Below, piece after piece: positions 2,826-49,540 of a stretch of DNA of 58,428 nucleotides. How positions within the stretch are numbered: position 1 is the first letter of the stretch; the number at the start of each line of letters is the position of its first letter. The notes under the pieces are model-generated. The model made no database searches. It saw nothing but the letters and a program-made list of their open reading frames with translations, and was not told where the DNA came from. A program made the position numbers and the translations under genes. This DNA comes from Flavobacteriaceae bacterium (GTDB taxonomy: Bacteria > Bacteroidota > Bacteroidia > Flavobacteriales > Weeksellaceae), in NCBI GenBank assembly GCA_031277475.1, contig JAITMJ010000134.1, forward strand, positions 1 through 58,428. The letters run 5' to 3'.

Positions 2826-3285
2826 TTTGATTTTTTGGATGATTCCAATCCTTGTTTTCTATAACAGAATGCAATCTTAAAAGTAAACTTTTTTTGTTAA
2901 GGAATGTGTGAATAACGAAAAACGGCTATTTCCCGTAAAAAAAATCGTAACTTCGCACCCGACTTTAAGGATGAACACACCGGTGATGTTCTATTGTAAA
3001 AAATTAATGATAAACTTATAGGATGAAACACGCATGACAAAAATTTGTCACACAAACAAAACCGAAGGTTTCGCCGACACCATTAAAAAAATAAAAATAC
3101 AGGAGGCAAATCCAAAGATTGGCTACGCCGAACCACTTCGTTAGGTTTCGCCGATTCCATTGAAAAAAAATAAAAATGTAGGAGGTAAAGCCGCTAAAAA
3201 AATAAATACGAACTCAAAGAAAAAAACAAAACTATAGCCATTTTTGCCCCCTTCGGGGGACAGGGGGCTTATAAAATATAAACAG
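2826..3285 (+). other. Long leader region of the polysaccharide operon, rich in repeats
   Basis: No gene is visible. TAACTTCG at 2948-2955 resembles a -7 box, so the operon may carry a leader of about 330 nt. Inside it lie: a 35-nt stretch (3023-3057) matching 333-367 with four mismatches; two copies of a dispersed repeat in reverse orientation (3061-3100 and 3142-3178); several short ATG-started frames, including MKHA overlapping the start of a 36-codon frame at 3033; and the GC-rich hairpin element at 3242-3276. Confidence 0.5.
3242..3276 (+). repeat. 35-nt GC-rich hairpin element 9 nt before a start codon (copy 1)
   Basis: The core is GCCCCC-TTC-GGGGG-ACA-GGGGG-CTT, flanked by TTTT and ATAAAA. 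The C-run can pair with the near G-run (closing a C(UUCG)G tetraloop) or with the far G-run (GCCCCC/GGGGGC), so two mutually exclusive hairpins are possible. An identical 35-nt copy lies at 48292-48326 on the minus strand, also 9 nt before an ATG. Function is unknown. Confidence 0.8.
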
Positions 3286-45918: not shown

Positions 45919-48282
45919 TCAAAACACGAAATCCAAACCCAAATAATACGTTCCGGACATTGTGGGCGCGTAAATCATTCCGGCATCAAAATAATTTCCG
46001 AAAGGATTTTTTGCATCAAGAATCGGGTTTTCTTGGCGAACGTTCGTCAAATTTTCGCCGCCGACATACACCCGAATTTTATCGTTGAAATTTTTGGAAA
46101 TCTGTGCATTCAGCGTGGCGTAAGTTTTGGAATAATCGGGCAAACGAAAGTCTGCGGGATTTTCCGAAGTATCCGGAATCCGCTGTTTTCCGATGATGTT
46201 TAAAGTGCCGTCAAAACTCCAAAATCCGCCTTTTTCGGTTTTGTTTGTGGCGAAAGAAACGTTTGCAAAACCACGATGTTTCGGCATAAACGGAACTTTT
46301 TTAAACCCATCGAGATAATCCGTATTCACATCGTAGAATTTGTAGGCAATGCGAAAATCGAGGTTTTTTGCAGGCGAAAAATCCCATTGCGTTTGGAAAG
46401 AATTGGCGTAAGATTTTCCGTTCAGGTTGTAAAACAGAATTTTACGAGCAGAAAAATCCAAATCCGCAACCACCATATTTTGAAAATCTGTCCTAAAAAA
46501 ATCTGCCAAAAACGTAGATTTTCGCCCGAAAATTTTAAACTCTTGTTGAAGGCTTGCGCCGTAATTCCATGCGATTTCGGGTTTTAAACCATAAATTTTT
46601 CCACCGTTTGCAGCGATTTCAATGTCGCGATTGGAAGCAAAATATTGCTGATTTTCGGCAAAAATATTCGCCGTTCGGAAACCTTTTCCTGCGGACAATC
46701 GGAGAACGGTTTTCGGAAAAATATCGTATTTAAAATTCACTCTCGGCGTAAATTGCGTTCCCGCCAAATTGTGAAAATCTGTTCTTGCACCGGCTACCAG
46801 CGTGTATTTTGCACCCGAAAAAGTATATTCCGCAAAAATTCCCGGAACGTTTTCCGTGCGTTTGAATTTTTGGTTTAAATAATCTTCATCGAAATCATCG
46901 TGCAAAAAACTCGCCCCGATTTTGTATTTATGATTGGTATTTCCCAAAATATCTTCGTATATCAAATTGGAATACAGCGTGTTCTGCTTTCCGTTGTAAT
47001 TTCTGAATCCGAAAAAAGATTGTTGTTCGTGATGCGTAAATTGGTTCATCCAGCCCAAACTTCGATACGGTTTTCCTTTAAAAATATATCCGGTTTTATT
47101 CCAAATTTGGATTCTGCCGATGTCAATTCCAACGCCGTAAGCCGTTTGTTCGCTTTGAGGTTTGCTTTTAATAAAATCGGTTTGTCCGGCGTTTCGTTCA
47201 TCTTTTAAAAAATTAATTCCAAAATGCGAAGCCCAGCCTTTATGTTCTAAATCATTGTAATTCAACAAGTAAGCGAAATTAATTTGATTTCCGGTCGGTT
47301 GGTCGAGGAATCCGTCTTCGTTGCCGTCGGTTTTTGCAAAAGTTCCGTCTGCGTGCAGCAAAATACTTTGGTTCCAATGTTCGGAAATTTTGGAAACTTG
47401 CGTGATGTTGGTTTCCAAACGGGCGTTGTTGTCGGCAAAAAAATTGACGGCAGTTTCATTTTTATCGTTAAATTTTAAAAATTCGGTGTTGATTTGTCCG
47501 GTAATGCTTTCGTAGCCGTTGGTTACAGTGCTTCCGCCTTTGGTGAGTTGGATTCCGGAAATCCATCGTCCCGGAATAAAATTCAATCCGTAAGCCGAGG
47601 AAATCCCGCGAATTTCGGGGAGAAGTTCTTTCGTGAGGCTAGTATATTTTTGGTCTAATCCCAACATTTTCAGTTGTTTACTTCCGGTAACCGCATTGCT
47701 GAACGAAACATCTACGGTGGCGTTAGTTTCAAAACTTTCGGAGAGATTGCAGCACGCCGCTTTCAGCAATTCTTTGGAATTGATATTAAAAACCAATCCC
47801 GCATTTTTTTTGTCGATTGCCGTTTCATCTTGCAAATTTGTGATTTTAACTTCCTGAATTTCAGAAGTTTGATTTGAATCGTGGTGTTGATGATTTTCAT
47901 CCGAATTGTTTTTTTCCACTTCCTCCGATTGATGAGAATCTTCGGAGATTTTTCTGTCGTAATGGCAACATTCGGGAAGGTTTTCATAAACTTCGTCCGA
48001 GGCGCGAAAAAGTTCGTTGTCGTGTCCGGCTTCAGCGATTTTTTTTAAAATTTCTTCCTTTGAAGTTTTGGCGGAATTGTATTCTACTTCCAGAATTTTG
48101 GTTTCGGAATCCCAATTTGCAGTTTTAGTTCCGGATTTTTTTGCAGTAGTTTCGATGCGGGTTTTGCACATTCCGCAGTTTCCGTTTACGAAATATTTTT
48201 CGGTTTGGGTTTGCGAAAAAAGTGATGTATTTCCCAAAAATAGGGAAATCATCAGGGTTAATATTATTTTGAAATTGTTCAT
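45919..48282 (-). CDS. TonB-dependent receptor with an N-terminal heavy-metal-associated domain
   Basis: 787-residue outer-membrane receptor. A signal peptide (1-23) is followed by an HMA domain (about 24-95) with the metal site NGNCGMC (Cys36, Cys39) and an extra ENLPECCHYDR Cys-Cys-His motif. A His/Glu/Asp-rich linker (HQHH) comes next, then the plug (KMLGLDQKYTSLTKELLPEI, TVTNGYESITGQINTEF) and a 22-strand-type barrel ending YYLGLDFVF. The HMA domain is nearly identical to the stand-alone protein upstream. It probably captures copper or a related ion for TonB-driven uptake, or as part of metal sensing. The ATG at 48282 is chosen because the longer frame reads through the GC hairpin. Confidence 0.88.
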   Translation of the reverse strand: MNNFKIILTLMISLFLGNTSLFSQTQTEKYFVNGNCGMCKTRIETTAKKSGTKTANWDSETKILEVEYNSAKTSKEEILKKIAEAGHDNELFRASDEVYENLPECCHYDRKISEDSHQSEEVEKNNSDENHQHHDSNQTSEIQEVKITNLQDETAIDKKNAGLVFNINSKELLKAACCNLSESFETNATVDVSFSNAVTGSKQLKMLGLDQKYTSLTKELLPEIRGISSAYGLNFIPGRWISGIQLTKGGSTVTNGYESITGQINTEFLKFNDKNETAVNFFADNNARLETNITQVSKISEHWNQSILLHADGTFAKTDGNEDGFLDQPTGNQINFAYLLNYNDLEHKGWASHFGINFLKDERNAGQTDFIKSKPQSEQTAYGVGIDIGRIQIWNKTGYIFKGKPYRSLGWMNQFTHHEQQSFFGFRNYNGKQNTLYSNLIYEDILGNTNHKYKIGASFLHDDFDEDYLNQKFKRTENVPGIFAEYTFSGAKYTLVAGARTDFHNLAGTQFTPRVNFKYDIFPKTVLRLSAGKGFRTANIFAENQQYFASNRDIEIAANGGKIYGLKPEIAWNYGASLQQEFKIFGRKSTFLADFFRTDFQNMVVADLDFSARKILFYNLNGKSYANSFQTQWDFSPAKNLDFRIAYKFYDVNTDYLDGFKKVPFMPKHRGFANVSFATNKTEKGGFWSFDGTLNIIGKQRIPDTSENPADFRLPDYSKTYATLNAQISKNFNDKIRVYVGGENLTNVRQENPILDAKNPFGNYFDAGMIYAPTMSGTYYLGLDFVF
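47941..48220 (-). repeat. 280-bp HMA-coding direct repeat, copy in the receptor gene
   Basis: Matches 49055-49334 without gaps at a constant offset of 1,114 bp; I count about 15 mismatches by eye (about 95% identity), most of them in one 40-bp patch. It encodes the HMA domain in both genes. Confidence 0.9.
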
Positions 48283-48291
48283 TTTTAATTT

Positions 48292-48326
48292 TTTTATAAG
48301 CCCCCTGTCCCCCGAAGGGGGCAAAA
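48292..48326 (-). repeat. 35-nt GC-rich hairpin element 9 nt before a start codon (copy 2)
   Basis: Identical over 35 nt to 3242-3276 when read on the minus strand, and again exactly 9 nt before an ATG (48282). See copy 1 for the two alternative hairpins. Confidence 0.85.
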
Positions 48327-48398
48327 GCCCTAATAATTATACTTTTTTTTAATTCAAACTTTGACAAAGTGTAAAGTGTTAAATATCAATTTTTTGTG

Positions 48399-48621
48399 TC
48401 GCCCTACGGGCGAAATAAGGTGAAGTTTTGTTTTTCCGTAGGCTACGCTTCGCTTACCTGCGGTTATGAAAATCCGGCTCTTCGAGCCGTCTCACGTTTT
48501 TTCTCAAATTTTCTCAAAGATTTTAAACTTTGTTAGAGGGTTTTAAGGTTCGGCTCCGAAGGGGTTCCGAACAAACTTTACGCTCATTCTTTTTCTACAA
48601 AGGTCTGACCTCTACGAGGTC
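48399..48621. repeat. Cluster of short perfect palindromes with 3-nt loops
   Basis: TCGCCC-TAC-GGGCGA (48399-48413), CGGCTC-TTC-GAGCCG (48475-48489), TTCGG-CT-CCGAA (48549-48560, inside a wider GTTCGG...CCGAAC) and GACCTC-TAC-GAGGTC (48607-48621). With the GC element at 48292 they fill the 385-nt gap between the Cys-rich gene and the receptor. No gene is visible in the gap. Confidence 0.75.
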
Positions 48622-48667
48622 GGTTCGGAAATTTTGTCAAAGTAAAGAAACGATTGGGAAAAAATCG

Positions 48668-49021
48668 CTAACACCCAAAAATTTTCGGCGGCTGCCAAAT
48701 TTCTTTGAAAAGAGAGGAGAAATACGGGTTAGCGTAAATGAAATTTTGTTTTTTTGAAACCGGATTTTCGCAAGTAAGTTCTTGATTTTCAGATTTTAAA
48801 ACAAAAATATTGGGGGAATTATTAACCTTGTGGCAGGTAGAATTGCAATCGCTTTTGCAATCTTTTTTCGGATTTTCTTTGCGGCTGTCGCAGCAATTTT
48901 TTTTAGAATTTTTGCAGCAACATTGTTCCGGTTCAAAAGTTTGAACATAAAAATTTTGCTTTGGAAATAGGATTAAACCAAGGCAAAAAATCATTATCAC
49001 AAATTGAAACCGATTTTTCAT
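48668..49021 (-). CDS. Cys-rich exported protein of the metal cluster
   Basis: 117 residues with a signal peptide (MKNRFQFVIMIFCLGLILFP). The mature part has a dense Cys block at about 33-64 (EQCCCKNSKKNCCDSRKENP, then KKDCKSDCNSTCHK) and isolated Cys later (LTCENPVS, final GC). Ten or more Cys with Lys spacing suggest a soft-metal (copper-type) binder or store. No known family recognised. It sits between the HMA protein and the HMA-TonB receptor on the same strand. A -7 box overlaps the stop of the upstream gene. Confidence 0.7.
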   Translation of the reverse strand: MKNRFQFVIMIFCLGLILFPKQNFYVQTFEPEQCCCKNSKKNCCDSRKENPKKDCKSDCNSTCHKVNNSPNIFVLKSENQELTCENPVSKKQNFIYANPYFSSLFKEIWQPPKIFGC

Positions 49022-49025
49022 ACCG

Positions 49026-49033
49026 CAAATTTA
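49026..49033 (-). promoter_or_regulatory. -7 box 4 nt before the Cys-rich gene start
   Basis: TAAATTTG on the minus strand, its TAA being the stop codon of the HMA gene. Only four bases separate it from the ATG at 49021, so a transcript from here would be nearly leaderless. Confidence 0.45.
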
Positions 49034-49405
49034 ATCATTTTTATTTATTGATTTTTCGGAGATTTTTCTGTCGTAATGGCAACATCCGGGAAGGTTTTCA
49101 TAAACTTCGTCCGAGGCGCGAAAAAGTTCGTTGTCGTGTCCGGCTTCGGCAATTTTTTTTAAAATTTCTTCTTTTGAAGTTTTGGCAGAATTGTATTCTA
49201 CTTCCAGAATTTTGGTTTCGGAATCCCAATTTGCTGCGTCTGCTCCGGATTTTTTTGCAGTGGTTTCGATGCGGTTTTTACACATTCCGCAGTTTCCGCT
49301 TACGAAATATTTTTCGGTTTGGGTTTGCGAAAAAGCAAAACTCGACATCAATAAAAATGCTCCGAAAAATAGTTTTGCGATTGATTTTAAAACGTGATTT
49401 TTCAT
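49031..49405 (-). CDS. Periplasmic heavy-metal-associated (HMA) domain protein
   Basis: 124 residues with a signal peptide ending near FAFSQ. The single ferredoxin-like HMA domain has the metal site SGNCGMCKNRIE; the fold continues KKSGADAANWDSETKILEV and SKEEILKKIAEAGHDNELFR. It closes with ENLPGCCHYDRKIS, an extra Cys-Cys-His motif. It would bind and hand over Cu(I) or a similar ion. It is the first gene of the metal cluster and close to identical with the N-terminal domain of the receptor two genes downstream. Confidence 0.88.
   Translation of the reverse strand: MKNHVLKSIAKLFFGAFLLMSSFAFSQTQTEKYFVSGNCGMCKNRIETTAKKSGADAANWDSETKILEVEYNSAKTSKEEILKKIAEAGHDNELFRASDEVYENLPGCCHYDRKISEKSINKND
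49055..49334 (-). repeat. 280-bp HMA-coding direct repeat, copy in the stand-alone gene
   Basis: Partner of 47941-48220; see there. Confidence 0.9.
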
Positions 49406-49540
49406 ACGGCAAATTTAAGGATTTTATCTTTTAAAAATGAGATTGAGAAAATTCTGCAGGCTAAACGTATTTTAAAAAAGAGTTTTATCGTCTTTTTTTT
49501 CTACGCAAAGAGATGTTCGCAAAGATTGTTTGACTCATTG

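Follow-up and report, generated by a model that had tools for sequence, protein, structure and literature searches.

The window analysed here is a stretch of 58,428 nucleotides (contig JAITMJ010000134.1) from a Flavobacteriaceae bacterium of the family Weeksellaceae, and it carries on its minus strand the gene for a TonB-dependent receptor (P0001, 787 aa, 45919-48282) whose N-terminus is an HMA domain. It was found that this HMA-receptor fusion is widespread in the host family and that the gene for a small, exported Cys-rich protein lies directly upstream of the receptor in every fused locus compared. Together, the fusion and this constant neighbour suggest that a soft metal entering through the receptor is passed on to the binding domain that the receptor itself carries, and we give an even chance to P0001 being a TonB-dependent importer of a soft metal, most likely copper, that keeps its periplasmic acceptor on a tether. 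The periplasmic reception of ionic soft metals after TonB-dependent import is poorly known; here the candidate acceptor is covalently attached, so that the reception step could be tested in a single protein by changing two of its Cys pairs, and the fusion draws attention to how Bacteroidota handle copper at the outer membrane. The parts belong to known superfamilies, and in the open literature searched neither a paper describing an HMA-TonB receptor fusion nor an experimental study of this receptor family was found, the combination being, to that extent, undescribed.

The host family consists of Chryseobacterium and its kin, bacteria of soil and water, and 148 of its genomes were searched for the receptor, the fusion being called from alignment start and frame length and checked in the loci. 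The receptor was present in 137 genomes and fused to HMA in 112 of them, belonging to 24 of 27 genera and including Chryseobacterium, Kaistella, Soonwooa, Halpernia and Cloacibacterium, and the idea of a fusion peculiar to the window genome was therefore rejected. The fused frame is about 50-71% identical (mostly 59-71%) across about 24 genera, and in a comparison of 120 receptors (100 fused and 20 unfused) Cys36, Cys39, Cys105 and Cys106 of the HMA region were invariant in all 100 fused ones, which excludes a chance fusion. An earlier interpretation of the window, made without database searches (the sequence-only reading), had proposed a search for the HMA, plug and barrel architecture in Bacteroidota, and inside the host family this architecture proved to be the rule. 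It had also held that its case would fail if homologues without the HMA domain or the Cys-rich neighbour were the rule; this is not so within the family; outside it, HMA is as a rule encoded by a gene of its own next to the receptor (16 of 20 unfused loci), which also fits a shared pathway.

The receptor starts at an ATG, and not at a TTG further upstream. Its signal peptide (residues 1-23, 48214-48282), as read from the sequence, would be cut just ahead of Gln24, in line with the Bacteroidetes Q-rule, by which a Gln follows the signal peptidase I site (PMC5837995). The HMA domain with its CC extension follows (residues 24-107, 47962-48213) and includes the putative metal-binding CxxC motif, Cys36-Gly-Met-Cys39 (48166-48177), and, after the HMA fold, the pair Cys105-Cys106 (47965-47970), which opens a CCH motif at residues 105-107. 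Against the Pfam HMA family (PF00403, cut-off 24.8 bits) the domain scored 24.3 bits on the whole protein and 29.2 in the genome search. In the predicted structure (model mdc475d86a8cc) it takes a beta-alpha-beta-beta-alpha arrangement at pLDDT mostly 85-95, with the last beta strand of the fold unassigned, which is the outcome of the N-terminal modelling that the sequence-only reading had proposed. Profile score, predicted fold and CxxC thus place the domain in the family, and the canonical Met two residues before CxxC is absent from these HMA domains. Therefore, an N-terminal HMA domain with CxxC and CCH, as originally described, is present; the linker behind it (residues 108-150, 47833-47961; pLDDT <50 for residues 112-167), described as His-rich, is only modestly so here and more strongly in relatives, with His at positions 117, 131, 133 and 134, the first two being mostly kept across fused receptors.

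Between the linker and the plug sits a stretch that is a candidate TonB box. The plug itself (about residues 151-265, 47488-47832) gave a sub-threshold Pfam Plug match over residues 164-262 (14.1 bits versus a cut-off of 23.9), whereas the same region aligned in an orthologue (L162) reached 35.6 bits, and the plug profile aligns to PDB 9gbc_A. The beta-barrel (about residues 266-787, 45922-47487), which is also visible in the predicted strands and in the conservation pattern, scored 87.7 bits against PF00593 (cut-off 27); with the plug recognised through L162 and 9gbc_A, the protein belongs to the TonB-dependent transporters, and near-full-length orthologues occur in about 24 genera. The barrel is free of Cys, and its His310, His418 and His504 are nearly invariant among the 120 receptors. 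A further CC pair, not mentioned in the sequence-only reading, is found in the plug (Cys177-Cys178, 47749-47754) and is invariant in 120 of 120 receptors, fused and unfused alike. By alignment, it falls between the first two plug helices, which face the periplasm in known receptors, and the pair would accordingly lie on the periplasmic side.

The Cys-rich protein (P0002, 117 aa, 48668-49021, minus strand) contains 11 Cys, in agreement with the ten or more originally counted in the exported middle protein of the cluster. Its profile (CC..., C..C... and a C-terminal IWQPPK) matched directly upstream of the receptor, in the same orientation, in each of the 100 fused loci, the proteins being small and exported, with 5-11 Cys and the conserved IWQPPK end; the gene is thus a constant partner of the fused receptor. 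Of 80 Cys-rich genes, 73 have a TAnnTTTG motif ahead of them, usually at most 10 nt from the start codon, where shuffled sequences would give 6.2; of 100 receptors, only 2 have it. This suggests that Cys-rich gene and receptor are co-transcribed as a single operon that starts at the Cys-rich gene. In the window this likely -7 promoter element, TAAATTTG, is found at 49026-49033 (minus strand), 4 nt before the ATG. The position of the gene, first in the operon and always directly upstream of the receptor, and the size, export, Cys content and conserved end of its product would also suit a secreted copper carrier, or metallophore, that is re-imported by the receptor and stripped by the HMA domain. 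However, nothing supports the exit of this protein from the cell, its N-terminus may be a membrane anchor, and no known metallophore of similar sequence was found in the Pfam and NCBIfam libraries searched, so that such a carrier is very improbable.

For the soft-metal importer with a tethered acceptor, the following sequence of events can be proposed. The receptor would import a soft metal or its complex across the outer membrane in a TonB-driven manner, and the N-terminal HMA domain or domains, held on a flexible periplasmic linker, would take the metal leaving the plug. The path would lead from the barrel to plug Cys177-Cys178, then to the HMA CxxC with the nearby His87 and the CC pair, and from there to another periplasmic acceptor, and the small Cys-rich protein of the same operon would buffer or carry metal in the envelope. 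His87 aligns with the Tyr of the CopA GY motif, and in HMA proteins this position lies close to the metal. In related bacteria, the acceptor would be a separate exported HMA protein encoded beside the receptor. A more specific version, which we regard as conceivable though with the balance tilted against it, is that TonB-dependent import ends by thiol ligand exchange from the plug Cys-Cys pair to the tethered HMA domain, leaving no free periplasmic metal, and that capacity is set by the number of HMA copies (one to three) together with the Cys-rich protein.

With regard to the metal, copper is likely the best candidate, judging from gene context and HMA profile matches. The first structure matches of the HMA profile are CopA and CopZ, and in NCBIfam searches, which covered P0001 at E up to 1 and 29 relatives at E up to 0.001, CopZ models matched 20 of the 29 receptors. 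Relatives of the HMA-CC proteins occur in copper or heavy-metal islands of plasmids: in Haliscomenobacter with RND pumps and a P-type ATPase; in Pontibacter with RND, SCO, a four-helix copper-binding protein and a P-type ATPase; and in Ornithobacterium fused to DUF3347, with a P-type ATPase and a multicopper oxidase. On pHALHY01, a relative of the receptor lies 5' to a second receptor, CusA and P-type ATPase genes. The original proposal of copper is therefore favoured by its genomic surroundings, that is, by the plasmid metal islands that hold HMA relatives and one relative of the receptor. The same islands, being devoted to efflux and resistance, could be taken to mean detoxification or sensing, with the HMA and Cys-rich proteins sequestering excess copper and the receptor exporting a copper complex or signalling metal status, and the rise of HMA copy number by duplication is what would be expected of buffer capacity. 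We nevertheless find this improbable, since known TonB-dependent transporters with metal ligands import, and nothing was recognised as an efflux pump when the neighbours of the chromosomal host-family loci were read by eye.

Several results weigh against copper import with a tethered acceptor. No copper-receptor model matched P0001 or any of the 29 relatives in the NCBIfam searches; the weak receptor matches of P0001, and its best curated ones, were FepA-type, all far below cut-off; and no Cys of P0001 has a Met at +4, as the CxxxM site of OprC would require. The pLDDT of the plug is mostly <50, and the position of its CC pair is not resolved in the model. Unfused receptors occur in 25 genomes of the host family, in three genera, and one of these genera lacks an HMA gene in the vicinity. 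The distribution of heme-copper oxidase (PF00115) was non-discriminating, as 235 of the 247 genomes drawn for a phylum survey have it, and it is counted on the same side.

The FepA-type matches could also mean that the receptor imports another ligand, such as a ferric siderophore, haem, zinc or mercury, and that the HMA domain has a side role, for example in stripping off contaminating copper or in thiol or redox chemistry. Additionally, the haem model TIGR01785 weakly matched 2 of the 29 relatives, and among solved folds BtuB, FepA and PfeA come closest, with OprC also among the matches (Foldseek E about 1e-20 to 1e-17 for BtuB, FepA and OprC). However, TIGR01785 gave no match to P0001 (E up to 1), the FepA-type, haem and fold matches are generic, and the invariant Cys pairs in HMA and plug, the HMA neighbour and the metal-island context all point to a soft metal, which makes another ligand unlikely. 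BfpR of Flavobacterium psychrophilum has been reported as TIGR01785 (PMC9331221); an identity with this receptor was set aside on the lack of a TIGR01785 match, a comparison made by model assignment and not with the BfpR sequence.

Among known systems, OprC, the TonB-dependent ionic copper transporter of Pseudomonas aeruginosa, resembles P0001 in its receptor fold, its plug Cys and the proposed import of an ionic soft metal. It differs in its binding site, made up of a plug CxxxM and a barrel HxM, where P0001 has a plug CC pair, and no HMA domain is described for it in the available part of the source (PMC8610252). CrtA of Bordetella pertussis, a TonB-dependent copper-chelate transporter, is likewise a candidate copper importer of this superfamily, but it comprises plug and barrel only, is found mostly in beta- and gamma-Proteobacteria, and is reported with no mention of HMA (PMC12914433). 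MerP, CopZ and CopA share the HMA fold and CxxC, and MerP is also periplasmic; here, in contrast, GNCxxC replaces MxCxxC, and an invariant CC and the tether to an outer-membrane receptor are added. The notion that HMA domains are exceptional outside the cytoplasm, on which the sequence-only reading had leaned, does not hold, given the periplasmic MerP and the exported HMA-CC proteins common in Bacteroidota. As for the Cys-rich protein, HYC_CC_PP (NF047658) and DUF6660 (PF20365) are also small exported Cys-rich proteins encoded beside the same or similar receptors, but P0002 reached neither model, nor any other curated Pfam or NCBIfam family. Unfused orthologues have a different small Cys-rich protein beside the receptor, several matching HYC_CC_PP (scores of 46-150 for three such neighbours); homology of P0002 to it was not established, the profile-profile probability against HYC_CC_PP relatives being 32% over 15 columns. 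In a copper-type plasmid of Ornithobacterium, a small Cys-rich protein ending in IWHPPQIA, with a weak DUF6660 match (L180:1555-1866), precedes a different TonB receptor, and the pairing of Cys-rich protein and receptor is seen there again.

Across the phylum, the receptor was found in 64 of the 247 genomes, and nearly all of those outside the host family align only from the plug onward. Bacteroidota receptors with an N-terminal CarboxypepD_reg domain have an orthologous plug and barrel, the unfused orthologues bearing this extension, whereas host-family receptors lack it and have one or more HMA domains in its place; in the window receptor, no CarboxypepD domain was found. Four receptors, two from the phylum draw (L155 and L156) and two from other searches (L061 and L152), have both, with HMA preceding CarboxypepD. 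In plug and barrel trees, HMA-bearing receptors fall into three groups, namely the host-family clade (24 rows, 100/99), L152-L155-L156 (100/99) and L061, and the fusion may thus have arisen three times, or fewer times with losses. Fused receptors mostly carry two tandem HMA copies, 22 of 100 carry one and a single receptor carries three. The latter, a 1002-aa ORF in locus L044, has second and third domains whose amino-acid sequences agree completely across the domain, with 97.5% identity at DNA level.

In the window, the three genes, each located where the sequence-only reading had placed it on the minus strand, are transcribed in the order standalone HMA, Cys-rich and receptor. The standalone gene encodes an exported HMA-CC protein (P0003, 124 aa, 49031-49405) that scored 30.6 bits against Pfam HMA on the protein and 31.4 in the genome search. 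It is a near-copy of the receptor domain and fell short of the MerP model TIGR02052 (18.8 versus 92.55 bits) and far short of the CopZ cut-offs of NCBIfam. Such a gene is not an essential part of the system, since 94 of 100 fused loci do without it and only 6, the window included, have it next to the receptor; both CxxC and CC are kept in 27 of 27 standalone HMA neighbours. Nor is the order seen here general, the HMA gene standing unusually before the Cys-rich gene, when elsewhere the order is Cys-rich, HMA, receptor. The standalone tract (49055-49330) and the receptor tract (47941-48216) are 94.6% identical over 276 nt, with unlike signal peptides, and the HMA tree pairs them as sisters (99/94), at a distance from the standalone HMA genes found in Soonwooa-type loci. 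From this identity and placement, the standalone HMA is evidently a recent copy of the receptor's own domain, made by duplication or gene conversion, and apparently the same process produced two of the three HMA copies of L044.

The start regions of the HMA and Cys-rich genes are nearly alike, TTAAATTTGC[CG]GTATGAAAAATC (49406-49420 and 49021-49036), and are perhaps part of a rearrangement. The element TAAATTTG recurs at 49410-49417 (minus strand) as the likely -7 element of the standalone HMA gene, judged in the window by motif and by the same spacing as at the Cys-rich gene. In the window and in relatives, TAnnTTTG boxes stand as close as 4-8 nt to the start codon, an arrangement suggestive of leaderless mRNAs. 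The gap between Cys-rich gene and receptor is about 385 bp in the window versus about 70 nt in most relatives, and it is filled (48283-48667) by a composite of dispersed repeats; counting the window's own copy, the genome holds 56 matches to it. A short part of this repeat recurs at 3242-3276, where it gives ORFs spurious 'MPPSGDRGLIK' extensions at the N-terminus.

Other neighbours were also noted. In 48 loci, mostly of Chryseobacterium (L038:4476-5156 and 47 others), a lipoprotein-like gene lies next upstream of the Cys-rich gene; its product has repeated MNPxHGxPGHRCDIxVGAPL motifs, belongs to no Pfam family and is perhaps metal-binding. The most distant receptors are preceded by HMA-like exported proteins (L177:11212-11571 and a 115-aa ORF in L070) in which GVCCNGD or GVTCSTD replaces CxxC. 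Finally, one receptor gene (G013:C7:24210-25303) seems to be broken into two adjacent frames, one of them with an internal stop.

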